Source of the DNA: Fodinicola acaciae
GTDB lineage: Bacteria; Actinomycetota; Actinomycetes; Mycobacteriales; HKI-0501
NCBI RefSeq assembly: GCF_010993745.1
Contig: NZ_WOTN01000001.1
Coordinates: forward strand, 1,863,235 to 1,927,234
Length of the DNA: 64,000 nt
Reading direction: 5' to 3'
Positions 455-11,630 of this stretch are shown here, piece by piece; position 1 is the first letter of the stretch, and every line of letters begins with the position of its first letter. The position numbers and the translations under genes were made by a program. A model generated the notes under the pieces. It was given only the letters and a program-made list of their open reading frames with translations. It was not told where the DNA came from and did not search any database.

Positions 455-1744
455 TCAGGCGAGAAGCAGCGCCGCGTCCCACGGCGTACGCGGTGGCTCG
501 CCAGCGGCGTACGTGTGCAGCGCGAGCGCGATTCCCGCGGCGCCACCGACGAAACCCGGCCGGTCCGCGGGCCGCGGTGCCACGTACGGTGCATAGCGAA
601 AGCCAAACGGACACTCGGCGTCATAGTCGTCCATCGTCCGCACCGCGAGTGCGTCGGCGGCACTCCACAGCCCCGGATCGCCGGTGTCGCCGGCCATCCG
701 CACCGTGATCTGCAGCAACCCGGACCAGCCGTGGCACAGGCCGGCGTCGCGGATCGCCGGATAGTCGGCGGTCTGCACGGCACCGCGCAGCGCGGCGATC
801 GCGAGCTTGCGCCAGTCCGGCCGGTCGAGCGCGGCACCGGCCAGGAACAATGCGCGCGAGATGCCGCCGGCGCCATAGCACCAGGCGTCGCGGCCGCGCG
901 TACGCTCCGGCGGCTCGCGGTGGTCGGCGACCGACACCCAGGCCGGCCAGTACGGACCGGCGTCGTCCTCGACCAGCCACCGATCCAGGATGCCGACGAT
1001 CCGTTCGATCGCGGCGTCCTGTCCCCCGACGCGTACGCCGGCCCGCCAGCTCAGCGCCAGCAGCGCGAGCGGTCCGCTCACACCGTGCGCGATGCCGAGG
1101 TCCACTCCGCCGCCGGCGTTGTCGCTGCTCCAGCACGCCGCCACCGGTACGCCGTCGACGCGTACGTCCGGAGCCAACCCGGCGGCCACCAGACATGCCA
1201 GCACCTCGGCCAGCGGCTCCGCCAGGCCGCGCGCCAGCAGATAGCGGCCCACACCGGTGATGCCGCTGATCAGGTCGAGCCGGCCACCGCCCGGCGACCG
1301 GCCGGTTTCGACATCGTCGCGGTACGCCGAAGCCTGCCGGACACCAGCGGTGGCGACGTGCTCGTCGAGCCGCTCGAGCATCGCCGTGTAGCCGCCGTAG
1401 CTGGCCGCCGCGACATGGCCGGCGTATCCGACGCTGGCGGCTCCCATGAACAACTGCGTCCGCACGCCGCCGATCGCGCGCGACGCGGCCGCGAGATGAC
1501 CGTGTGCCGCCCGCCGCATCGCCGGATCCGTCGCGGCCAACTCGGCGAACAGCAGCGCGACACCCGGATGGCCTTCGCCGAGCGTGTCCGGCAGCCACAC
1601 CGGCACCGGCCGCGGCAGCGCGTCGTGCAGGTTGTCCGGAGCACTCGCGACCGCGGCGACCGCGTCCGGATCGGCCAGCCGGGCGGCGAGCTCCGCGACG
1701 ATGCCGCTCGCGCGTTCACGTTCAGACGTCCCGGCGTACGGCAC
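455..1744 (-). CDS. Stand-alone LanC-type lanthionine cyclase
   Basis: A 429-residue LanC-like protein. The three zinc-ligand blocks of the alpha-toroid fold are present: GIAHG with H220, WCYGAGG with C289, and LCHGWSG with C337/H338. LanC enzymes activate precursor Cys thiols on zinc and add them to dehydrated Ser/Thr to make (methyl)lanthionine rings. I chose GTG at 1744 because GGAGAG lies just upstream. This start overlaps the end of the oxygenase gene by 23 nt, and the longer reading gives an Arg/Trp/Cys-rich N-terminus unlike the family. It is last in the minus-strand run of precursors, dehydratase and two cupin proteins, and supplies the cyclase half that the dehydratase lacks. Start choice is moderately sure; family assignment is sure. 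Confidence 0.88.
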   Translation of the reverse strand: MPYAGTSERERASGIVAELAARLADPDAVAAVASAPDNLHDALPRPVPVWLPDTLGEGHPGVALLFAELAATDPAMRRAAHGHLAAASRAIGGVRTQLFMGAASVGYAGHVAAASYGGYTAMLERLDEHVATAGVRQASAYRDDVETGRSPGGGRLDLISGITGVGRYLLARGLAEPLAEVLACLVAAGLAPDVRVDGVPVAACWSSDNAGGGVDLGIAHGVSGPLALLALSWRAGVRVGGQDAAIERIVGILDRWLVEDDAGPYWPAWVSVADHREPPERTRGRDAWCYGAGGISRALFLAGAALDRPDWRKLAIAALRGAVQTADYPAIRDAGLCHGWSGLLQITVRMAGDTGDPGLWSAADALAVRTMDDYDAECPFGFRYAPYVAPRPADRPGFVGGAAGIALALHTYAAGEPPRTPWDAALLLA

Positions 1745-2915
1745 GGAAGCTCTCCAACGTCTCCAGCAGCGCGCGGCCAGCTTCTCCGTCCGCCGTGACC
1801 GGCTGGCCGTCGCGCAGCCGGTCCAGCAGCGGCCGCAGTCGCGCGCCAAACGACGTCACCTGACCGTTGGCCGCACAAAGGCCACCGGCGATCGCGATCT
1901 CCTCCACTGGTCGCACGACTGTGCCGTCGGTCAGCGGCACACGCGGCGCGGGTGGCGGCACCGGACGGAAGCCGCCGGCAGTCCGTATCCGCAACGACCG
2001 GTCGGCCGTACGCCTCGCCAGCTGGTGGTCGGCGAGCTGGCGGAAATGCCGCAGCGCGTCGGCCATCGCCGGCGCCAGGCCGGCCGGCTCGGTGATCGCC
2101 GTCGAGGCTCCGGCCGGCGCGTCGAACTGGCGAAAGCCGAGGCCCGGATCGGCCAGCAGCGCCGGATCCGCGTTCAGCAGCAGGTCGTCGAGGTCGTACG
2201 CGGCGCGGTGTCCCTCTCGCGGCACACCGATGTTGACGCTGGTGGCGGCGGTGTCGCCGGCACTCTCGCCGACGTGGAAATAGCTGGACGGCCAGTAGAG
2301 CAACTCACCGGGACCAACCTCGGCGGCGAAGGAGTCGGCCACGTACGGCTGGTAGTCCAGCACGGTGCTGACCGGCGCGGTCCACGGCCGGCTCGGCCAG
2401 AACCGCATCCGTTTGCGGCCGGAGAGGCCGAACATGAAGGTGGCGAACCGGTCCTTGTGGACGCCGACCGGACTGTGCTCGTACGTGCCGTGGAACAACG
2501 TCGTGATGGCGCCGCTCAACGGCAGGCCGACCCGCTGCCACAGGCCGGCGTAGAAGTCGCGCTCACGCTTCCACTGCGGGAAACAGAAGCCGTGGAAGCC
2601 GTGTACGACCAGCGCGTACCGGCGGCCGCCGAGCCGCTCGGCGACTCGCTTCTGATAGCCGGCGAGGCTGGCATCGGCGCCTTCCGGCAGCAGGTCGCCG
2701 CGGCTGACCTGCTGCCGGCGCTCGACGGTGAACTGTGCGTTTGGCGGGATCAGGCCCGGCTCCAGCTCGGCGGTCGCCCGCACCGCGGCCTGATAGACCT
2801 CGTCCTCCTGGAACGGCGCCCACGGCAGGTGCCGGACCAGCACCGGCCGGCGGTCCCAGAACCGCTCGACGAAGACATCCCAGTCCAGCGTGTCCAGCTC
2901 AGCGATGTCGGACAT
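1722..2915 (-). CDS. JmjC/cupin-like Fe(II)/2-oxoglutarate oxygenase-family protein
   Basis: A 397-residue protein with a cupin core. H153-x-D155 (GVHKDRFATF) and H214 (SSYFHVGES) form a plausible 2-His-1-Asp iron triad. The spacing and the RKRMRFWP strand resemble the cupin_4/JmjC ribosomal-oxygenase-like group, which hydroxylates protein side chains. I read ATG at 2915; a longer frame adds a basic, low-complexity leader. The gene starts 3 nt after the stop of a second cupin gene and overlaps the start of the LanC gene, so it is co-transcribed with lanthipeptide biosynthesis. I infer a tailoring oxygenase on the precursor. The substrate residue is unknown, though both precursor cores share a His. 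Confidence 0.75.
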   Translation of the reverse strand: MSDIAELDTLDWDVFVERFWDRRPVLVRHLPWAPFQEDEVYQAAVRATAELEPGLIPPNAQFTVERRQQVSRGDLLPEGADASLAGYQKRVAERLGGRRYALVVHGFHGFCFPQWKRERDFYAGLWQRVGLPLSGAITTLFHGTYEHSPVGVHKDRFATFMFGLSGRKRMRFWPSRPWTAPVSTVLDYQPYVADSFAAEVGPGELLYWPSSYFHVGESAGDTAATSVNIGVPREGHRAAYDLDDLLLNADPALLADPGLGFRQFDAPAGASTAITEPAGLAPAMADALRHFRQLADHQLARRTADRSLRIRTAGGFRPVPPPAPRVPLTDGTVVRPVEEIAIAGGLCAANGQVTSFGARLRPLLDRLRDGQPVTADGEAGRALLETLESFRAVRRDV

Positions 2916-2917
2916 CG

Positions 2918-4009
2918 TCAGGCCCCTTCTCCGACCAGTTCGAACGCGTACAGCCGATAGAGCGCGCTCAGCAGCCTGACCACGGCGTCGACCCGATCCG
3001 CGGCGTTCATCGCGTCGCACAGCTGGCCGACGCCGACCTCACGACCCAGCGGCAGCTCGGCGAGCAGCCGGTCACCGGCGCGGCCGGACAGCGGCAGGCC
3101 GTGGCCGTTCACGGTCCAGATCCACCGGTCGGATCCGGCCGGCACGCGCGCGATCTCGGCCGTCCGGCGGATCCGCGTGCCGGTGGTCAGCGACGCCGGC
3201 GGCCGCGGCGCGACTGGTTCCAGGCCACCGGCCGACCACCGCTTCGCCGCCTGTACGCGCAAAGTCCGTTCGACCACCACCGAGTTGACCGCCTCGCGAA
3301 ACTCCTCGGCGACCCTGGCGACCGGCCGCACGGTCTCGCCGACCGGCACGTACGGCACGGCGTCGCCGTCTCGCCGCGCGTCCAGCGCCTCGGCGAGCGC
3401 GTCCTTCACCGCGACGAAGGCGAGCCGGCCGTCGGTCGGCACGCGCAGCCGCAGCATCACGCAACGATCGACGGTGTCGGCGGCTCGCCGGCCGGCCGGC
3501 CGGAAAAGCAGCTCTCCGGCCGAAACCGCGGCGCCGTCGGCCGTACGCAGCGACCCGGTCAATATCCAGGCCAGCTCGGCATGCGTCTCCCCTGCCGTCA
3601 CCGTCGACTCTCCGTCGCCGGCCACCAGCTCCGGCACGACGGACAGGCTCGGCCACCCGACCCGGCGCCACAGCGCACGCAGTTCGTCGCGTACGGCCGA
3701 CCAGTGCGCGAAGTCGAGCAACAGCGGCTGCTCGACGGTCAGCTGGCAACCCCGTACGCGGTCGAGGTAGCCGTCGAAGCTCTGATCTGCGGCGTCCGGC
3801 AGGAGCTCGCCGGGCGCGCGGATCACGCCGTCCGCGGCGCGAAACCGTACGTCCGGCAGCGCGCCGAAGCGCGTACCGGCACGAAACGGCGCACACGCCT
3901 CGACCGTCAGACCGAAGGCCGCCGACAGGCCGATCGGCGCGGCCGCCGGCACGACCGTCGCCTCGCGCAGCCAGTGGCGGCTCACGACCTCGGACCAGTT
4001 GCCGGTCAT
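2918..4009 (-). CDS. Degenerate cupin/JmjC-like partner protein
   Basis: A 363-residue paralogue of the adjacent oxygenase: similar size, similar order of segments (GELLPDAADQSFDGYL against GDLLPEGADASLAGYQ) and a matching GWPSLS/GLPLSG core strand. The proximal metal motif is H143-x-E145 instead of HxD. The distal His is absent: the strand reads LLFRPAGRRAAD where the partner has LLYWPSSYFH. I infer either a non-catalytic partner that binds substrate in a heterodimer or an enzyme with altered metal binding. ATG at 4009 overlaps the stop of the dehydratase gene (ATGA), which indicates translational coupling. A longer N-terminal frame runs inside the upstream gene and is rejected. Confidence 0.65.
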   Translation of the reverse strand: MTGNWSEVVSRHWLREATVVPAAAPIGLSAAFGLTVEACAPFRAGTRFGALPDVRFRAADGVIRAPGELLPDAADQSFDGYLDRVRGCQLTVEQPLLLDFAHWSAVRDELRALWRRVGWPSLSVVPELVAGDGESTVTAGETHAELAWILTGSLRTADGAAVSAGELLFRPAGRRAADTVDRCVMLRLRVPTDGRLAFVAVKDALAEALDARRDGDAVPYVPVGETVRPVARVAEEFREAVNSVVVERTLRVQAAKRWSAGGLEPVAPRPPASLTTGTRIRRTAEIARVPAGSDRWIWTVNGHGLPLSGRAGDRLLAELPLGREVGVGQLCDAMNAADRVDAVVRLLSALYRLYAFELVGEGA

Positions 4010-6315
4010 GACGCGAACCGCTGTCGCAGCTGCTCGGCGTAGTCCTCGAGAGACAGCAGTCCCATGGCTCTCCTGCGTTCTTCGACGTGGTCGGGGTCCT
4101 CGATCCGGCACGGCACGAACTCGCCGTCCACCCGGTCGAACTTGGTGCCATAGAGCTGCGGCCGGCCTTCGGCGAGCCGGATCGTGTCGGTGACGTACGC
4201 GAGCTCGCGGAGCGGGAAGTCACCGGCCTCGGCGGCCGCCGTCATCAGCTCCAGGCAGCGGCGCTGCAGCGGCAGATCATCCTCCAGATGCTGGACCAGC
4301 CGGCTGGCCGCCAGCGTCGCCGCCGTACCGACGGTCGAGCGACCTGGCCAGCCGTGCTCGTCAAGGACGTCGCGCAGCCAGCCGGCCGCCGATCTGGTGA
4401 GCGTCGTCAGCCTGCGGTGCAGCGACTCGTCGGCGAAGCCGCCGCGCGCCCACGGCATCCGCAGCCGGCCGTCCAGCCGGTCCAGCCGCAGCAGCCGCTG
4501 CCTGATCTCCGCGACCGCCGGCACCGGCTCCTCCACCAACGGCGTGTCGATCGCGTCGATGGCCAGCCGCATCGCCGCGCCGCTCCAGCGATAGGTGATC
4601 CGGCGGCCGGCCCGCGGCCAGTCGAAGGTCGCCGAGCCGTCGGCGGGTCCGTACAGCCGCAGGCGCAGGCCGAGGTCCGGATCGTCGACATGGAGCGAAG
4701 GAATGTCGTCGAAGACATGCTCGATGGCGTCGCGCAGCGCCGTGCCGAGAGTGGCGAGGTCGAGCCGGCCCGTCGCCGCCGTCAGCTCCACGTCGTCGGT
4801 CAGCTCACCGGTGAGATGGCGCAGCGGTCCGCCGTGGACGGCGCGGAAGAAATACGGCACGTCGCCCTGGTCGAGCTGTTGTCTCTCGGCCGCGTCGAAA
4901 TCGGCCGCGGCTGGCTCGCCGCTGACCCACTCGGCCTGCAATGCCCGCACGTACTCGGCGGTCGACCGGCGTACGACGCGTACGACCGCGTCCCCGGCCT
5001 CGGCGACCAGGTCGTGGATCGCGGTGCGGTGCCGGCACATCAACGTCCAGCAGTCGAACATGCCGCGTAACATCGCCGGCAGATAGCCGCCATAGCCGGC
5101 GTTGCCGGCGGTGTCGCCGACCACTGACCGAGTGGTCGTGCGGGTGATGGACTCGTCGCGTACGCGCAGGGACAACGCGCCGTCCGGGCCACGGGTCCAG
5201 CACACCGGATGGCCGTCGATGTCACACCAGCGCGGCTCGTTTTCCAGGCCGACATGGTGTGTCGTCGAGGCGGACGGCGCGTAGACCAGCGTGGTGTGCG
5301 ACAGTCGTGGCGCCTGCGTGAAAAACATCTCCAGGTCGACCGGATAGAGCATCGGATCACCGCCTGGCCGCGCGCCGGCCAGCAGGTTGCCGCCGTGCAG
5401 ATCCGTGATGCCAAAGGCAAAACAGGCGGCGGCCAGGGCGCCGGCGCGGCGCCAGAACCTCGCGGCCTCGACCGGCTCCAGCCGTGTGCCGGCCAGCTCG
5501 TACGGTCCCTCGCGCCGCAACACACCCCACTGCCGCGGCCGCTCGACCCACTCCTGCCAGGAATAGTCACCGCGATCCGCGCCTTCGCCGCGCCAACTCG
5601 GCAGCACCGGCAGCCGCACCTCGCCCGAGGCCGACGGCAAACCGTTGAGCAGGGCGAAAACCGAGGTCCGCGGGTCGTCGCCGAGAAAGAGCAGCTCACC
5701 AGAGGCCGGTCGTGGTTTGTACGCGACGCTGCCACCGCCGGCCAGGTCGACCCGAATGACCCGCTGGCCGCCATTGTGGGTTTCCTCGCCATGCATCCAC
5801 AATCCGGTGACCGGCCAGCGCAGCTCCGGACGGTCGGGCCAGGCCGGCAGGTCACGGCAGAGGCGGTCGAGAAAGCGGTCGAGCAATGTCTCGGTCTGCG
5901 CGCGCCGCAGGCCGACGAACTCGGCGACCGACGGCCGGTTTGCCGCGCACACAACGAAAGCCTCGCGGACGAACGGCGCGAACAGGTCGGCATTCGTGAC
6001 CGTCAACAAATCGGCCGGCACGTCCGGTGCGTACGTCGACGCGGCCACCGTGCACCAGGCGGCGAGATGGTCGAGCGCCACACACAACGGCGCGAATCGC
6101 CGCGTATGCAACGAATGCGCGAGCGCACGAGCGTCCGACTCACCGCTCAACCAGTGCTGAAACGCGACCGTGCGATCAGGACCGTCGGTCACCACCGGCG
6201 GAAACATCGGGCCGGCGACACCGGCGCGTACCGCCGCGACCAGCAACCCCGCGGCACCTGGCGGATCGGAGCCGTCCGCGCCGGGATCAACCAGCGTCCA
6301 CACGTCTGTCGTCAC
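4006..6315 (-). CDS. LanM-type dehydratase (DUF4135) lacking the cyclase domain, with DUF6624-like tail
   Basis: A 769-residue protein. Residues ~100-650 match the LanM N-terminal dehydratase, which phosphorylates Ser/Thr of a precursor and eliminates phosphate. Key blocks are AYKPRP (K200), FGITDLHGGNLL (D305, H307, N310) and YPVDLEMFF (D327, E329). A normal class II LanM is about 900-1100 residues and ends in a LanC domain; that domain is missing here and is encoded separately at 455-1744. The last ~100 residues instead resemble DUF6624: QRRCLELM, RPQLYGTKF, IEDPDHVEERRRAMGL. GTG at 6315 is preferred because GAGAGA precedes it; the longer frame starting MHLHFLLLL overlaps the precursor gene in another frame. 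The start is moderately sure, the family sure. Confidence 0.85.
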   Translation of the reverse strand: MTTDVWTLVDPGADGSDPPGAAGLLVAAVRAGVAGPMFPPVVTDGPDRTVAFQHWLSGESDARALAHSLHTRRFAPLCVALDHLAAWCTVAASTYAPDVPADLLTVTNADLFAPFVREAFVVCAANRPSVAEFVGLRRAQTETLLDRFLDRLCRDLPAWPDRPELRWPVTGLWMHGEETHNGGQRVIRVDLAGGGSVAYKPRPASGELLFLGDDPRTSVFALLNGLPSASGEVRLPVLPSWRGEGADRGDYSWQEWVERPRQWGVLRREGPYELAGTRLEPVEAARFWRRAGALAAACFAFGITDLHGGNLLAGARPGGDPMLYPVDLEMFFTQAPRLSHTTLVYAPSASTTHHVGLENEPRWCDIDGHPVCWTRGPDGALSLRVRDESITRTTTRSVVGDTAGNAGYGGYLPAMLRGMFDCWTLMCRHRTAIHDLVAEAGDAVVRVVRRSTAEYVRALQAEWVSGEPAAADFDAAERQQLDQGDVPYFFRAVHGGPLRHLTGELTDDVELTAATGRLDLATLGTALRDAIEHVFDDIPSLHVDDPDLGLRLRLYGPADGSATFDWPRAGRRITYRWSGAAMRLAIDAIDTPLVEEPVPAVAEIRQRLLRLDRLDGRLRMPWARGGFADESLHRRLTTLTRSAAGWLRDVLDEHGWPGRSTVGTAATLAASRLVQHLEDDLPLQRRCLELMTAAAEAGDFPLRELAYVTDTIRLAEGRPQLYGTKFDRVDGEFVPCRIEDPDHVEERRRAMGLLSLEDYAEQLRQRFAS

Positions 6316-6365
6316 GCTTTCTCTCGCGCGGGTGACGGCCGACCGCGGCCGCCACCCGCCGGCGA

Positions 6366-6536
6366 TCACCAGCAGTAGTAGGAAATGCAGGTGCAATAGC
6401 GGCAGCCGGAGACGGTGCCGACATGCGTCGTGGACGCGGTGATGTCGTCCAGCGCCGGGATTTCCGTCTCCAGGTCACCGATCACCAGGTCGAAGTCGGC
6501 GTCGGCTTCCCGGATTTCCGTTACGGGTGCGGTCAT
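6366..6536 (-). CDS. Lanthipeptide-type precursor peptide 1
   Basis: A 56-residue peptide. An acidic leader (ADFDLVIGDLETEIPALDD) is followed by a Thr/Ser-rich stretch (TASTTHVGTVSG) and a Cys-rich end, CRYCTCISYYCW. The strong AAGGTGGAGAGA ribosome site before ATG at 6536 supports the start. It sits 50 nt upstream of the dehydratase start and is probably co-transcribed with it. The leader, the cleavable-looking boundary around DDITAS and the four Cys fit a RiPP substrate. Leader similarity to FxLD or thiopeptide-type leaders is noted, but the enzymes present are LanM-type dehydratase and LanC. Exact cleavage site and rings cannot be read from sequence. Confidence 0.85.
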   Translation of the reverse strand: MTAPVTEIREADADFDLVIGDLETEIPALDDITASTTHVGTVSGCRYCTCISYYCW

Positions 6537-6574
6537 TCTCTCCACCTTTCACCTCGAGGGTGCGGACGGCCTAG

Positions 6575-6603
6575 AGAATGACCGGAAAACCGCCCCCATG
6601 CAA
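6575..6603 (-). promoter_or_regulatory. Candidate promoter of precursor 1
   Basis: On the minus strand TTGCAT (6598-6603) and CATTCT (6575-6580) are 17 nt apart and about 40 nt upstream of the precursor 1 start. The same block (GGTCATTCTCTAG followed by CCGTCCG) recurs upstream of precursor 2. Conservation between the two copies is what suggests function; the -10 match itself is weak. Confidence 0.4.
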
Positions 6604-6668
6604 GGCCGTTTCGAAAAAATCCCGGATTCCGTGGTTTCCAACAGAAAACCTTCTCCGACCTTGCAGAT

Positions 6669-6845
6669 TCAGAAGCAGTAGACGGAAATGCAGGTGCACA
6701 GGTCACAACTGGTGCCGGTGTTCAGATGCGAGCCGGACGCGACGACGTCGTCCAGCGCCGGGATTTCCGCTTCCAGATCCCCGATCACCAGGTCGAAGTC
6801 GGCCTCAGCCGGGGTCGTCTCGACTGTCATCACAGGTGCGGTCAT
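6669..6845 (-). CDS. Lanthipeptide-type precursor peptide 2
   Basis: A 58-residue paralogue of the neighbouring precursor. The leader core is nearly identical (ADFDLVIGDLEAEIPALDD). The next part differs (VVASGSHLNTGTS) and the end keeps the pattern CDLCTCISVYCF against CRYCTCISYYCW. Conserved positions are all four Cys, the TCIS block, one His ten to twelve residues before the first Cys, and a final aromatic residue. ATG at 6845 follows GGGTGG; an upstream in-frame ATG three codons earlier is less well placed. A tandem duplication that also copied the promoter is the simplest origin. The products could be a two-component system or two variants. Confidence 0.85.
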   Translation of the reverse strand: MTAPVMTVETTPAEADFDLVIGDLEAEIPALDDVVASGSHLNTGTSCDLCTCISVYCF

Positions 6846-6883
6846 TCGTTCCACCCTTCAGCATGGACGTACGGACGGTCTAG

Positions 6884-6913
6884 AGAATGACCCGGAAATC
6901 CGAGACATGGCAA
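6884..6913 (-). promoter_or_regulatory. Candidate promoter of precursor 2
   Basis: On the minus strand TTGCCA (6908-6913) and CATTCT (6884-6889) are separated by 18 nt, ~40 nt upstream of precursor 2. The block matches the one before precursor 1, so the duplication unit included promoter plus coding sequence. The -10 hexamer is weak. Confidence 0.4.
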
Positions 6914-7028
6914 GGGTTTCGGCAAAATCGCAACCGTCCCAGCAAAAAGCCTGCCGGCACCTTGCGAAAACCTTGCGGCTGCGGCGGCTCTTGCCGAAAC
7001 AGCAAGCTTTCGTCCGACCCGGCGAAGT

Positions 7029-7110: not shown

Positions 7111-8940
7111 ATGGACGGCACCGATCGTGACGCGGCGCGCCTTGTCGCCGGTCGCTATCTCATCCGCGAGCCCGTCGGACAGGGCGGCATGGGCCGGGTC
7201 TGGCGCGCGTACGACCAACTGCTCGGCCGCCAGGTCGCACTGAAGGAGCTGATCCGGCCGGCCGCCGACCTGACCGAGCGGCTGCTGCGCGAAGCGCGTT
7301 TTGGTGCGCGGCTGCGGCACCCTGGGATCGTGCACGTCCACGATGTCGTCACCGACGGCGACAGCCAGTGGATCGTCATGGAGCTGATCGACGGCCACAG
7401 TCTGGAGGATCTGGTCCTGGCGAACGGACCGCTGCCACCCGACCGGGTCGCCGAGATCGGCCTTGAGCTGCTCGACGCCCTGACCGTCGCGCACCAGCAC
7501 GGTGTCATCCACCGCGACGTCAAACCGGCGAACGTCCTGATCGACGCCACCGGCGCCGTACACCTGACCGACTTCGGTATCGCCTTCGAGCTCAGCCAAA
7601 GTCCGCTGACCGCCACCGGTGCGGTGATCGGCTCGCCGCAGTACATGGCGCCGGAACGCGTACGCGGCGAGACGCCGACGGCCGCCAGTGACCTGTTTTC
7701 GGTTGGCGCGACGCTGTACGCGGCGGTCGAAGGCCGGCCACCGTTCGGCCGGCCAGGCCAGGTGCCGACGCTCGCCGCCGTGCTCAGCGATCCACCCGAC
7801 CCGGTCGATCGCGCCGGTCCACTCGCGCCGATTTTGGCCGGTCTGCTGGAAAAGGAGCCGACTCGACGGACCGACGCCGACACTGCGAAACGCCAGCTCG
7901 CCAACCTGAGCGACACCGTCATCGCGCCGGCGCTTTCGTCAGCATCCGCGCCAAAACCTGCCAATCGGCGGTTCCGATGGCCGGTCCTCGCCACTGCCGC
8001 GGTATTGGCGCTTGCGGCGGCCTGTGTGGTCATCGCTTTTCGACCGCAGCCGATTGGTCACCATGCGACCAAAACAACCGCGATCGGCCGGTTTTTCGTA
8101 CGTACGCCGGCGGACTGGACGCCGATCGCCAGCTCCGACGACCAACCGCGGCCCGGCATCGCGCCGCCGGACAACCGGCAGGTTGCCGTACAGATCTGGT
8201 TGGCCCCCAACAACGAAGCGGCACTGCGAGACCTGGCCATCACGGAGACGACGTACCGCGTCGAGCGGCCGGGATATCGCCGGATCAGCCTCAACCTCGC
8301 GCCGTTCGCCGGCAGCGCGGAAGGCGCGAAGTGGGAATGGACGTGGCGTGACAACGGCGTCACGCGCAGGGTCCTGCAGCATGCCGTACAGGATCAGGAC
8401 GGCCGGCTCTACGTCCTCTCGTACGCGGCACCGGCCGGCGATTTCGTCACGTACCAAAAGGATGTCGATGCCATCGTCGCATCGGCCCGGCTGGACACAT
8501 CGGCCGAGCCGAGGTCGCTCCTGCCGGTCGTCGCCGAAGGTGTCAGCGCTTCCGTACCGACCGGTTGGAAAAGCCGGCCGCACGCCGGCGGGAAAGGTAC
8601 GGACTTCTATCGGCCGGCGGCACCGGCGGCGTACCTGACCTTCAGCCGCGAGCCGGCCGACAGCTATTTCGTCAACGGCTATGACTGGACGACTTTCTGG
8701 GCCGGCCAACCCGGTGAGACCGGCTATCAGTTGCTCAGTCGCGCGCCGGTGGTCTACGCCGGCGTCAGAAGCAGCGGACGGTGGGACTATTTCGTCACCT
8801 CCAGCAAAGGCGTACGCCTGAAGGTCCGCGCTTTTGCCGCGATCACTGACAAGAAGCTGTATCGGCTGCTGTGTGTCGCACCGGGCGGCATCGAGCAAAC
8901 CTGCGACCAGGTGGCCGCGACGGTGACCGTCGCCCGCTGA
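7111..8940 (+). CDS. Membrane Ser/Thr protein kinase, PknB-type catalytic domain
   Basis: A 609-residue receptor-like Hanks kinase. The glycine loop is GQGGMGRVW, the catalytic Lys is K45, the catalytic loop is HRDVKPAN (D136), followed by DFG (154-156) and MAPE (179-182). A single membrane helix lies at ~290-310 (WPVLATAAVLALAAACVVIAF). About 300 residues would be outside the cell; they show no PASTA repeats, only two similar-sized beta-rich halves that each contain a (T/S)PADW- or VPTGW-like start. It autophosphorylates and signals to cytoplasmic targets by analogy with PknB. It is divergent from the lanthipeptide precursors, so a regulatory link is possible but unproven. The ATG start is well defined. 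Confidence 0.9.
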   Translation: MDGTDRDAARLVAGRYLIREPVGQGGMGRVWRAYDQLLGRQVALKELIRPAADLTERLLREARFGARLRHPGIVHVHDVVTDGDSQWIVMELIDGHSLEDLVLANGPLPPDRVAEIGLELLDALTVAHQHGVIHRDVKPANVLIDATGAVHLTDFGIAFELSQSPLTATGAVIGSPQYMAPERVRGETPTAASDLFSVGATLYAAVEGRPPFGRPGQVPTLAAVLSDPPDPVDRAGPLAPILAGLLEKEPTRRTDADTAKRQLANLSDTVIAPALSSASAPKPANRRFRWPVLATAAVLALAAACVVIAFRPQPIGHHATKTTAIGRFFVRTPADWTPIASSDDQPRPGIAPPDNRQVAVQIWLAPNNEAALRDLAITETTYRVERPGYRRISLNLAPFAGSAEGAKWEWTWRDNGVTRRVLQHAVQDQDGRLYVLSYAAPAGDFVTYQKDVDAIVASARLDTSAEPRSLLPVVAEGVSASVPTGWKSRPHAGGKGTDFYRPAAPAAYLTFSREPADSYFVNGYDWTTFWAGQPGETGYQLLSRAPVVYAGVRSSGRWDYFVTSSKGVRLKVRAFAAITDKKLYRLLCVAPGGIEQTCDQVAATVTVAR

Positions 8941-8991
8941 CCGGACGGGTAACGCGCGGCGCTTCGCCTGACGAGCCGGCTGCTCGCGCGG

Positions 8992-9014
8992 CCGGTTACC
9001 GGTAAAATGCCGCC
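8992..9014 (+). promoter_or_regulatory. Candidate leaderless promoter of the LAL gene
   Basis: A good -10 hexamer, TAAAAT (9003-9008), ends six bases before ATG at 9015, and there is no Shine-Dalgarno sequence in between. In actinobacteria this arrangement is typical of leaderless mRNAs. A small palindrome, CCGGT-T-ACCGG (8992-9002), abuts the -10 and could be an operator. Confidence 0.45.
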
Positions 9015-11630
9015 ATGCCGCCGCTTCTGCCGGTCATCGGCCGGATGGAAGAGCTCGACACGCTGTTGGCGCTGCTCGACCAGGGGACGGCCGGCGTCGT
9101 CGTCGCCGGCGAGGCCGGTGTCGGCAAGACGCGGCTGATCCGTGAGCTGCTGCGACGGGTCGAGGCGGCCGGCCATCCGGTGCGGTCGGCGACCGCGACC
9201 GCCTCACTCGCCTGCGTGCCGTTCGGCGTGTTCGCCAACCTCGTTCCGACGCGCGGAAATCCGGCCGAGCTGCTGACGCAGGCCGTGGAAGTGCTCGGCT
9301 CGCTCAACGGTGAGCGCCGGCTGGTGCTCGCGGTCGACGACGCGCACCTCCTGGACGGCATGTCGGCGGGTGTGTTGCAGTTGGTGACGGCGAATCGTGC
9401 GGCTTTTGTCGTTGTGACCGTACGATCCGGCGAGCCGGTCCCCGATGCCGTACGCGCGTTGTGGAAGGACGAACACGCCGATCTGCTTGAGCTGCAGCCA
9501 CTTTCGCGCAGCGAGACCGGCGAGTTGGCCGCGACCTTGCTCGGTGGCCATCCCGACGCGGACTGCCTGCGCCGGCTCTGGGAAATCAGCCGCGGCAGTC
9601 CGCTGGTCGTACGCGAGGTGGTGGCGGTCGGTCGCCGGCGAAACGCTTTGGTCGAGCGGCACGGCGTGTGGTCCTGGCCCGGCGACGTGCTGATCGGCAC
9701 GCAGCTGTCGCAGCTGGTGGAAGACCGGCTGAAAGACCTGACGCCAGAGCAACGGTCCGCGCTGGAGCTCGTCGCACTCGCCGAGCCGGTCGGCCTCGAC
9801 CTGGTCGGCGCGTCGGTCGACACCGCGGTGCTGGAAAGCCTGGAAGTCGCGGGGCTGCTGACCAGCGCGGCGGACGGTCTGCGGCATCAGGTGCAGGTGG
9901 CACATCCGTTGTATGCCGAGACCGTACGACAGGGCCTGGTTTTTCTGCGTCGCCGTGGCGCATACCGCAAACTCGCGGAGGCATTGGCCGCGGTGGGTTG
10001 CCGCCGGCGGGACGACCAGGTCCGGCTCGCGCTGTGGCAGGTCGAGGCCGGCGTCGCCACCGACCGGCAGTTGTTGGCCGCGGCGGCCAGTCAGACTCTG
10101 GCGGTCTACGAGCACTCGCTCGCCGAGCGGTTGGCGCGCGCCGCGCGGTCGGCCGGACCGTACCTGCCGGCCGACCTCACGCTTGCGCAAAGTTTGCAAT
10201 GGCAGGGCCGTTTCACCGAGGCGCAGGACGTTCTCGACGCGGTGGATCTCGACGCGGCCACGCCGGGACAAATCGCCGACCATGCGATCATCGGCAGCGG
10301 CAACTCGTTTTTCGGCCACGGCCTGCTTTCCGCCGCGGAGGCCGAGCTGCAGGCGGCGCAGCGGCGACTTTCCGGCCATCCCGAGCAAACTCGCGTGATC
10401 GCGCACCGGATCACCCTCGAGTTCACCACCGGCGAGATGACCAAGGTGCTGGCAACCACCGACGAGCTGCTGCGCATCGCGGCCGGCGACGCGGAAAGCC
10501 GCGTGTGGGCCACCTTCATGCGGTTCGCCGCGTTGAGCATGACCGGCCGGATGGAGACCGCGCTGGCATTCGTGGAGCCGGTCGAAAAGGACGCGGCGGA
10601 GTTTCCGCGTGGACAGGTGGTGGTCGCCAACATCGTCAGCGGACGTTGCACGGCATACCGTTTCATCGGCGACCTCGACACCGCCGAGTCGCTCGCCGAG
10701 GCCGGCTATCAGCAAACGCTTGGCTGGCGCGGAAACAGTGGTTGGTGGCCGCTGGTGCTCGGCCAGGTCGCGTCAAACCGCGGCCAGATGTCGAAGGCCG
10801 CGACGCTTCTCCGCGAGGCGACGGCCGCGCTTGTTTTCGAGGACATGGACCGCGTACGACGTTGGGCGCTCAGTGATTTGGCGCAGGCGCTGGCACATCT
10901 TGGCGATCTGGAGACGGCGCGGTCAGCCGTGGCCGAGGCCGACAGCAGTGGCCTCCACGCGTATCAGTGGCTGGAATCCGGTGTCGTACGCGCAAAAGCC
11001 TGGATCGCCGCGGCCGAGTCGCGATTCGTCGACGCCCGGCGGCTGGCAGCAACGGCCGCCGACATCGCCGCGACGAAACAAGAAGTCGTTTTCGAACTGG
11101 AAGCGGCACACGACGCGTTGCGGCTCGGCGACCTGCGCGCCGCGACCCGCATCCGCCGGATCGCGACCGGTGTCGAGGGAAAACTCGCGCCCGCGTACAC
11201 GCGACACGCGATCGCCCGCGCTGCCGGCGATGCGGCTTCTTTGCAAGATTCGGCAACGGAATTCGCCAATCTCGGCATGTTATTGTTGGCCGCTGAGGCG
11301 GCCGCGGAGGCTGCCAACGCGTACCGGCTGACCGGCGACAAGCGCGCGGAGATTGCCGTCACCGAACAGGCTCGCGCCTGGCTGACCGAATGCGGCACGG
11401 TCCGTACGCCCGCGCTCGCGCCGATCCTCGGCGACCACCCGTTGACAGCGTTGACCGCACGAGAGCGCGAAATCGCGCAGATCGCCGCGGCAAACGTGAG
11501 CAGCAAAGCCATTGCCGACCAGTTGCGGCTGTCCGTGCGTACGGTCGACAATCATTTGGCCCGTGTCTACCAGAAGCTCAACATCACCGGTCGCAGCGAA
11601 CTGATCGGCCTGTTCAAGGATCCCGGTTGA
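9015..11630 (+). CDS. LAL-type (large ATP-binding, LuxR family) transcriptional regulator
   Basis: An 871-residue protein. The N-terminal AAA/NTPase has Walker A GEAGVGKT (32-39) and Walker B LVLAVDDAH (103-111). A long helical TPR-like middle follows. The C-terminal LuxR helix-turn-helix (~810-871) reads LTAREREIAQIAA and SVRTVDNHLARVYQKLNI. LAL proteins activate transcription in response to ligand and ATP binding, often in secondary or sugar metabolism. It lies 74 nt after the kinase gene on the same strand but has its own likely leaderless promoter. The size is normal for the family. Target genes are unknown; the nearby lanthipeptide cluster is one candidate. Confidence 0.92.
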   Translation: MPPLLPVIGRMEELDTLLALLDQGTAGVVVAGEAGVGKTRLIRELLRRVEAAGHPVRSATATASLACVPFGVFANLVPTRGNPAELLTQAVEVLGSLNGERRLVLAVDDAHLLDGMSAGVLQLVTANRAAFVVVTVRSGEPVPDAVRALWKDEHADLLELQPLSRSETGELAATLLGGHPDADCLRRLWEISRGSPLVVREVVAVGRRRNALVERHGVWSWPGDVLIGTQLSQLVEDRLKDLTPEQRSALELVALAEPVGLDLVGASVDTAVLESLEVAGLLTSAADGLRHQVQVAHPLYAETVRQGLVFLRRRGAYRKLAEALAAVGCRRRDDQVRLALWQVEAGVATDRQLLAAAASQTLAVYEHSLAERLARAARSAGPYLPADLTLAQSLQWQGRFTEAQDVLDAVDLDAATPGQIADHAIIGSGNSFFGHGLLSAAEAELQAAQRRLSGHPEQTRVIAHRITLEFTTGEMTKVLATTDELLRIAAGDAESRVWATFMRFAALSMTGRMETALAFVEPVEKDAAEFPRGQVVVANIVSGRCTAYRFIGDLDTAESLAEAGYQQTLGWRGNSGWWPLVLGQVASNRGQMSKAATLLREATAALVFEDMDRVRRWALSDLAQALAHLGDLETARSAVAEADSSGLHAYQWLESGVVRAKAWIAAAESRFVDARRLAATAADIAATKQEVVFELEAAHDALRLGDLRAATRIRRIATGVEGKLAPAYTRHAIARAAGDAASLQDSATEFANLGMLLLAAEAAAEAANAYRLTGDKRAEIAVTEQARAWLTECGTVRTPALAPILGDHPLTALTAREREIAQIAAANVSSKAIADQLRLSVRTVDNHLARVYQKLNITGRSELIGLFKDPG

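Follow-up and report, generated by a model that had tools for sequence, protein, structure and literature searches.

The operon at positions 455-6845 of the window (the whole stretch of 64,000 nucleotides that was analysed) probably encodes a RiPP whose core would be dehydrated by a LanM-type enzyme, oxidised at its YC end by JmjC/pseudo-JmjC proteins and closed into LanC-dependent rings only in members with two extra cysteines. Among the loci compared, the conserved module looks to consist of a dehydratase ending in DUF6624, a pair of cupin proteins and a precursor peptide, with the cyclase LanC as an optional part. The earlier note had proposed a coherent and possibly undescribed RiPP system, and this proposal stands: the architecture is shared by 46 loci, and no description of it was found in the searchable literature.

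All genes are open frames on the minus strand, placed as in the earlier note, and follow one another from 6845 to 455 in the order precursor 2, precursor 1, dehydratase, cup2, JmjC and LanC. The start codon of cup2 lies inside the dehydratase stop (ATGA), cup2 and JmjC are separated by 2 nt, and the genes for LanC and JmjC overlap by 23 nt; two cupin/JmjC-like genes with coupled starts, as had been claimed, are thus located between dehydratase and cyclase. The operon is bounded by a convergent reading frame (2-448) at its end and by a divergent Ser/Thr protein kinase gene (7111-8940) adjoining its start, and is therefore complete, without an exporter or protease of its own. The Pfam matches in the window are LANC_like, JmjC_2, DUF4135 and DUF6624; none was obtained for cup2 or either precursor. 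Behind the kinase gene lies a large gene for an AAA-LuxR regulator, and both (7111-11630) are possible regulators of the operon. Furthermore, a perfect 10-nt inverted repeat (GTTTCGGCAA/TTGCCGAAAC, 6916-6925 and 6991-7000) in the intergenic DNA ahead of precursor 2 may be an operator, and a similar TTTTCGCGAAACC..CTTG stretch is found ahead of the precursor in the Fodinicola feengrottensis locus L081.

Both Cys-rich precursors postulated earlier were confirmed as ORFs. Precursor 2 (58 aa, 6669-6845, minus strand, ATG start with RBS; leader ..DFDLVIGDLEAEIPALDDVV, core ..SGSHLNTGTSCDLCTCISVYCF) is homologous to precursor 1 (56 aa, 6366-6536, minus strand, ATG start; leader ..DFDLVIGDLETEIPALDDIT, core ..STTHVGTVSGCRYCTCISYYCW), to the precursor of a second operon (L005) in this genome and to the relatives' precursors. 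The two peptides end in TCISVYCF (6672-6695, minus strand) and TCISYYCW (6369-6392, minus strand), respectively, both representing the element [ST]C-x(3-5)-YC which forms the core end in every readable locus; this diagnostic end is absent from the earlier note. Examples from other organisms are TCAGVYCC (S. globisporus), TCIRVYCI (S. roseolilacinus) as well as TCRRIYCIP and SCSRFIYCV (Lysobacter). The leader motif reads DLVIG[DE]LE in actinobacteria; proteobacteria have it in the looser form LxxxGxL. Sense-strand ORFs ending in C-x(2-6)-Y-C and no more than six further residues were sought upstream of the dehydratase and found in 47/47 loci, that is in all with readable upstream sequence; the rate in the other 1.68 Mb, used as control sequence, gives a chance expectation of 0.1. 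The modifying enzymes are hence accompanied by a small precursor whose leader is conserved and whose core varies, as is the case for RiPPs.

Precursors 1 and 2 are tandem duplicates (78 % over 141 nt), and the duplication also covers the 5' region (6366-6589 and 6669-6898, 78-79 % identity, spacing 303-309 nt). A perfect 12-nt inverted repeat (CGGTCATTCTCT/AGAGAATGACCG, 6530-6584, minus strand) holds the ATG of precursor 1 in its 3' arm. The predicted RNA fold (-29.3 kcal/mol, z -3.8) would mask this start codon and the RBS; ahead of precursor 2 the corresponding copy folds less strongly (z -0.3), and no such fold is seen in the leaders of L005 and L081.

The second operon of the genome (L005) is complete, with its own precursor and with proteins 64, 57, 65 and 61 % identical to those of the window. 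An initial contig scan with one single protein gave no match, and a search of plasmids yielded one useful match, in a mislabelled and unannotated Nonomuraea chromosome. The scan of one genome per species placed the 46 loci of shared architecture in about 45 other genomes of two phyla. The carriers include many Streptomyces (among them S. griseus, S. globisporus and S. anulatus), Nonomuraea, Kitasatospora, Kribbella, Catenulispora and Stackebrandtia MAGs, F. feengrottensis and the gammaproteobacterial genera Luteimonas and Lysobacter. DUF4135-DUF6624, cup2 and JmjC occur together wherever the locus is long enough for a decision. When 395 actinomycete genomes were sampled, the full-length dehydratase and a close JmjC were present in an identical set, namely two genomes besides that of the window. 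No conserved transporter, protease or immunity gene emerged when 48 loci were compared all against all, nor was one conserved among the sampled neighbour genes. In Luteimonas (L072, 8740-13638) the dehydratase has cup2 on its upstream and JmjC on its downstream side; the module is located between a proton-antiporter/NADH-dehydrogenase-type gene and nusA and looks as if it were an inserted cassette.

The dehydratase (769 aa, 4006-6315, minus strand) is a LanM-type kinase-lyase without a cyclase domain, which bears out the earlier description of an enzyme ending in DUF6624. Its DUF4135 match (E 5e-23) is above the Pfam cut-off, and the DUF6624 domain (residues 607-764, 4024-4497, minus strand, E 3e-9) occupies the position usual for LanC. 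No match to solved structures was obtained with the dehydratase by direct sequence search, and the relation was found by fold only: a model built from 30 relatives (pLDDT 90.5) matches residues 96-686 of CylM with its residues 17-559 (Z 20.0, 3.0 A over 383 residues), the other top match being LicM2. Motif positions were transferred via the ordinary fused LanM of the same genome (L001, G000:C2:2239836-2243951, 1003 aa), aligned to LicM2 and CylM; the presence of that protein means that the detached arrangement is not an organism-wide property. The motifs, conserved in the family, are E178-T-H180 in place of DxH, YK200PR, D305..N310, D327, R446, T452 and GD485VPYF. E178/H180, K200, D305, N310, D327 and R446 are invariant, R446 being found in 30/30 and T452 in at least 27/30 relatives. 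Their assignment to phosphorylation or elimination follows the roles of the corresponding residues in CylM. The His between D305 and N310, the kinase His corresponding to His349 of CylM, is kept in only the two Fodinicola-type dehydratases, so that phosphorylation may be altered outside Fodinicola. DUF6624 itself has the invariants HGWPG, QH, D710, Q720 and G723 in 30 relatives. Stand-alone DUF6624 proteins, about 40 % identical to the C-terminal domain of the dehydratase, are common in actinomycetes: 47 of the 395 sampled genomes gave matches, including four fusions, and 43 contain the DUF6624 part only. Co-occurrence of DUF6624 with some graspetide groups has been noted without a function (PMC13097080).

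LanC (429 aa, 455-1744, minus strand) is indeed a separate gene (LANC_like, E 6e-45) with all zinc ligands (AHG / WCYG / CHG), motifs which are invariant in 20 aligned LanCs of the family. By LanC profile search of locus ORFs, the gene is present in 22 of the 41 informative loci (the window and 21 others) and absent from 19, and a profile search over all ORFs of these 19 detected no hidden or diverged LanC. Most LanC-less genomes encode LanC proteins elsewhere, several (L070, L075, L077) none whatsoever; the LanC frame is broken in draft contigs of S. globisporus (L051) and F. feengrottensis (L081). The number of cysteines follows this distribution exactly: four near the C-terminus of the precursor in LanC loci (23/23 precursors) and two in the core in LanC-less loci (26/26). 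However, LanC loci group strongly in the JmjC tree and one change explains the distribution (prematurely ending contigs excluded), so the correlation may rest on one event instead of many independent ones. With 19 of 41 informative loci lacking it, including those of proteobacteria and those that branch deepest in the midpoint-rooted tree, LanC looks optional. Since the LanC-less lineages are the wider ones, the comparison of sequences suggests a later addition of LanC, a tree of this shape being compatible with gain or loss.

Of the cupin oxygenase pair described earlier, one member deserves the name. JmjC (397 aa, 1722-2915, minus strand) resembles Fe(II)/2-oxoglutarate oxygenases (JmjC_2, E 4e-5), with YcfD as nearest solved relative by sequence (E 4e-5), and its iron triad H153, D155 and H214 is intact in 27/27 sequences. 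By contrast, cup2 (363 aa, 2918-4009, minus strand) contains no HxD/E..H and no conserved His, Asp or Glu at this place in 27 sequences, and having lost the metal ligands it leaves only one cupin able to act as an oxygenase. It is nevertheless homologous to JmjC over the full length (24 % identity, hhalign E 1.6e-44). The cup2 model (pLDDT 88) shows the three-domain YcfD/NO66 fold of cupin, helical and winged-helix domains (Z about 15), and at its C-terminal end three strands are followed by three helices. The RRE is defined by a winged helix of three strands and three helices in that order. From the model we infer that the pair may bind the leader while only one member is catalytic. PF08007/JmjC_2 proteins that carry RRE-like domains have been reported, as have bacterial homologues in RiPP-like surroundings (PMC12710340).

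In the proposed pathway the leader (FDLVIGDLExEIP) would be bound by the winged-helix, RRE-like ends of the JmjC/pseudo-JmjC pair, which would thereby present the C-terminal core. Phosphorylation and elimination of core Ser/Thr by the LanM-type kinase-lyase would lead to Dha/Dhb, the first target probably being the invariant Ser/Thr preceding the first Cys of [ST]C..YC. The single active JmjC would oxidise the conserved Tyr-Cys end of the core, with the pseudo-JmjC as structural and leader-binding partner. In the window and the other LanC-bearing loci, LanC may then close (methyl)lanthionine rings using the two extra core cysteines; order of steps, ring pattern and any role of DUF6624 are likewise tentative. 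The pathway is supported by the conserved gene set, the co-occurrence of JmjC and dehydratase, the universal precursor, the kept catalytic residues, the CylM/LicM2 fold, the complete JmjC triad and the LanC/Cys correlation. Further support comes from the reported RRE-like JmjC proteins (PMC12710340) and from the JmjC hydroxylases of biphenomycin pathways (PMC12707348, PMC12257519). The loss of the kinase His outside Fodinicola, the missing conservation of a protease or exporter nearby and the single tree change that suffices for the LanC/four-Cys split weigh against it.

A bolder proposal, possible although we give it somewhat less than even chances, is a separate RiPP class of Actinomycetota and Pseudomonadota. 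It would be characterised by DUF4135-DUF6624, a JmjC/pseudo-JmjC heterodimer and a core of about eight residues with [ST]C..YC; the oxygenase pair and not LanC would make the defining cross-link or Cys/Tyr oxidation, and LanC would have been recruited in the sub-branch with two extra cysteines. Closely related, and to our minds rather unlikely, is the idea that in LanC-less members the pair is the actual ring-former by an oxidative Cys-Tyr cross-link or a Cys heterocycle, in which case this would not be a lanthipeptide family and LanC would be a later addition. An oxidative cross-link of this kind would, if true, establish a separate class. The universal occurrence of the [ST]C..YC element and the cupin pair, but not of LanC, and the broader, partly proteobacterial range of LanC-less lineages agree with such a ring-former, whereas the characterised JmjC_2 relatives YcfD and NO66 are plain hydroxylases.

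Improbable, moreover, is a dehydratase that only phosphorylates; the product would then be an oxidised phosphopeptide, and any rings in it would be independent of LanC. EmbM of the phospeptin pathway, a cyclase-less LanM, phosphorylates Thr (PMC9505594), and one kinase His is replaced in the present family. However, R446 and T452, elimination residues whose loss is reported for EmbM, are conserved in this family and make kinase-only action less likely, the cores carry conserved Cys and half of the loci possess a zinc-complete LanC. Still further from the evidence is the reading as an ordinary class II lanthipeptide system, its LanM divided into two genes by fission or sequencing error and its cupins being ordinary tailoring enzymes; we regard this as very improbable. 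A LanM-type dehydratase is present, and the best NCBIfam match of the window LanC is a LanM model. LanC as the displaced half of a split LanM does not agree with its total absence from 19 loci, with DUF6624 at the LanC position in every full-length relative or with an invariant cupin pair beside a variable LanC. Nor does any relative found by the genome scan continue the dehydratase frame into LanC, which is separate or absent in all of them, and the intact second copy together with 46 loci without fused LanC largely refutes the broken enzyme. An assembly or frame error as cause of the missing domain was ruled out by the same copy and relatives. That both cupins are ribosomal-protein oxygenases present by chance outside the pathway has a negligible probability despite their YcfD/NO66 fold, because the pair is never apart from the dehydratase in the 395 sampled genomes and the complete loci, its starts are coupled and one partner is a pseudo-enzyme.

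If RiPP biosynthesis with optional cyclisation is the correct reading, the two halves of LanM are separable in nature, the cyclase being an optional part that tracks the Cys number of the substrate, and its optionality offers a natural test of what LanC contributes. With four proteins and about eight core residues, the LanC-less version is small enough for reconstitution in E. coli and would reveal the action of a JmjC oxygenase and its inactive twin on a Cys/Tyr core; it also provides a first testable setting for DUF6624. Large-scale mining studies assign anything with DUF4135 to class II (PMC7268733), so their lists may contain unrecognised members of this family. In the searchable literature, to which most subscription journals do not belong, this gene combination is not described, no paper has DUF4135 and JmjC together, DUF6624 is mentioned in a single paper, and core or leader strings are absent. 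Cyclase-less LanMs, an odd DUF4135 fusion and JmjC enzymes of RiPP pathways are known singly; their combination, found in no paper, appears undescribed.

Among the known systems, YcfD, NO66 and MINA53 share the architecture of cupin, helical and winged-helix domains (for cup2, Z about 15), but they act on ribosomal proteins, are catalytically complete and stand outside RiPP operons. In the biphenomycin-type RiPPs a JmjC-family oxygenase (BipG, BpmG) acts on a RiPP core as well; according to the available portions of these reports, that is an MNIO and rSAM pathway with no dehydratase and no pseudo-JmjC partner described (PMC12707348, PMC12257519). PoyF (polytheonamide) and EmbM (phospeptin) have in common with the present enzyme a LanM dehydratase domain without LanC. 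However, PoyF belongs to a proteusin pathway and EmbM is kinase-only, neither is described with DUF6624 or a JmjC pair (PMC9505594), and the elimination residues and conserved Cys are present here. CcaM contains a DUF4135 dehydratase in an unusual fusion that acts on a Ser before a Cys-derived residue, comparable to the invariant [ST]C (PMC10676384); the present system differs from it by the lack of YcaO, by DUF6624 instead of a cyclase domain and by the JmjC pair. Class II lanthipeptides (CylM, LicM2) are set apart by their fused cyclase, which is here unfused, often missing and replaced in position by DUF6624, and the present loci are further distinguished by the obligatory JmjC/pseudo-JmjC pair, the short invariant [ST]C..YC end and the lack of LanT/protease; shared with them are the DUF4135 dehydratase fold with its catalytic residues, the Ser/Thr- and Cys-bearing cores and, in some loci, a LanC with zinc ligands.
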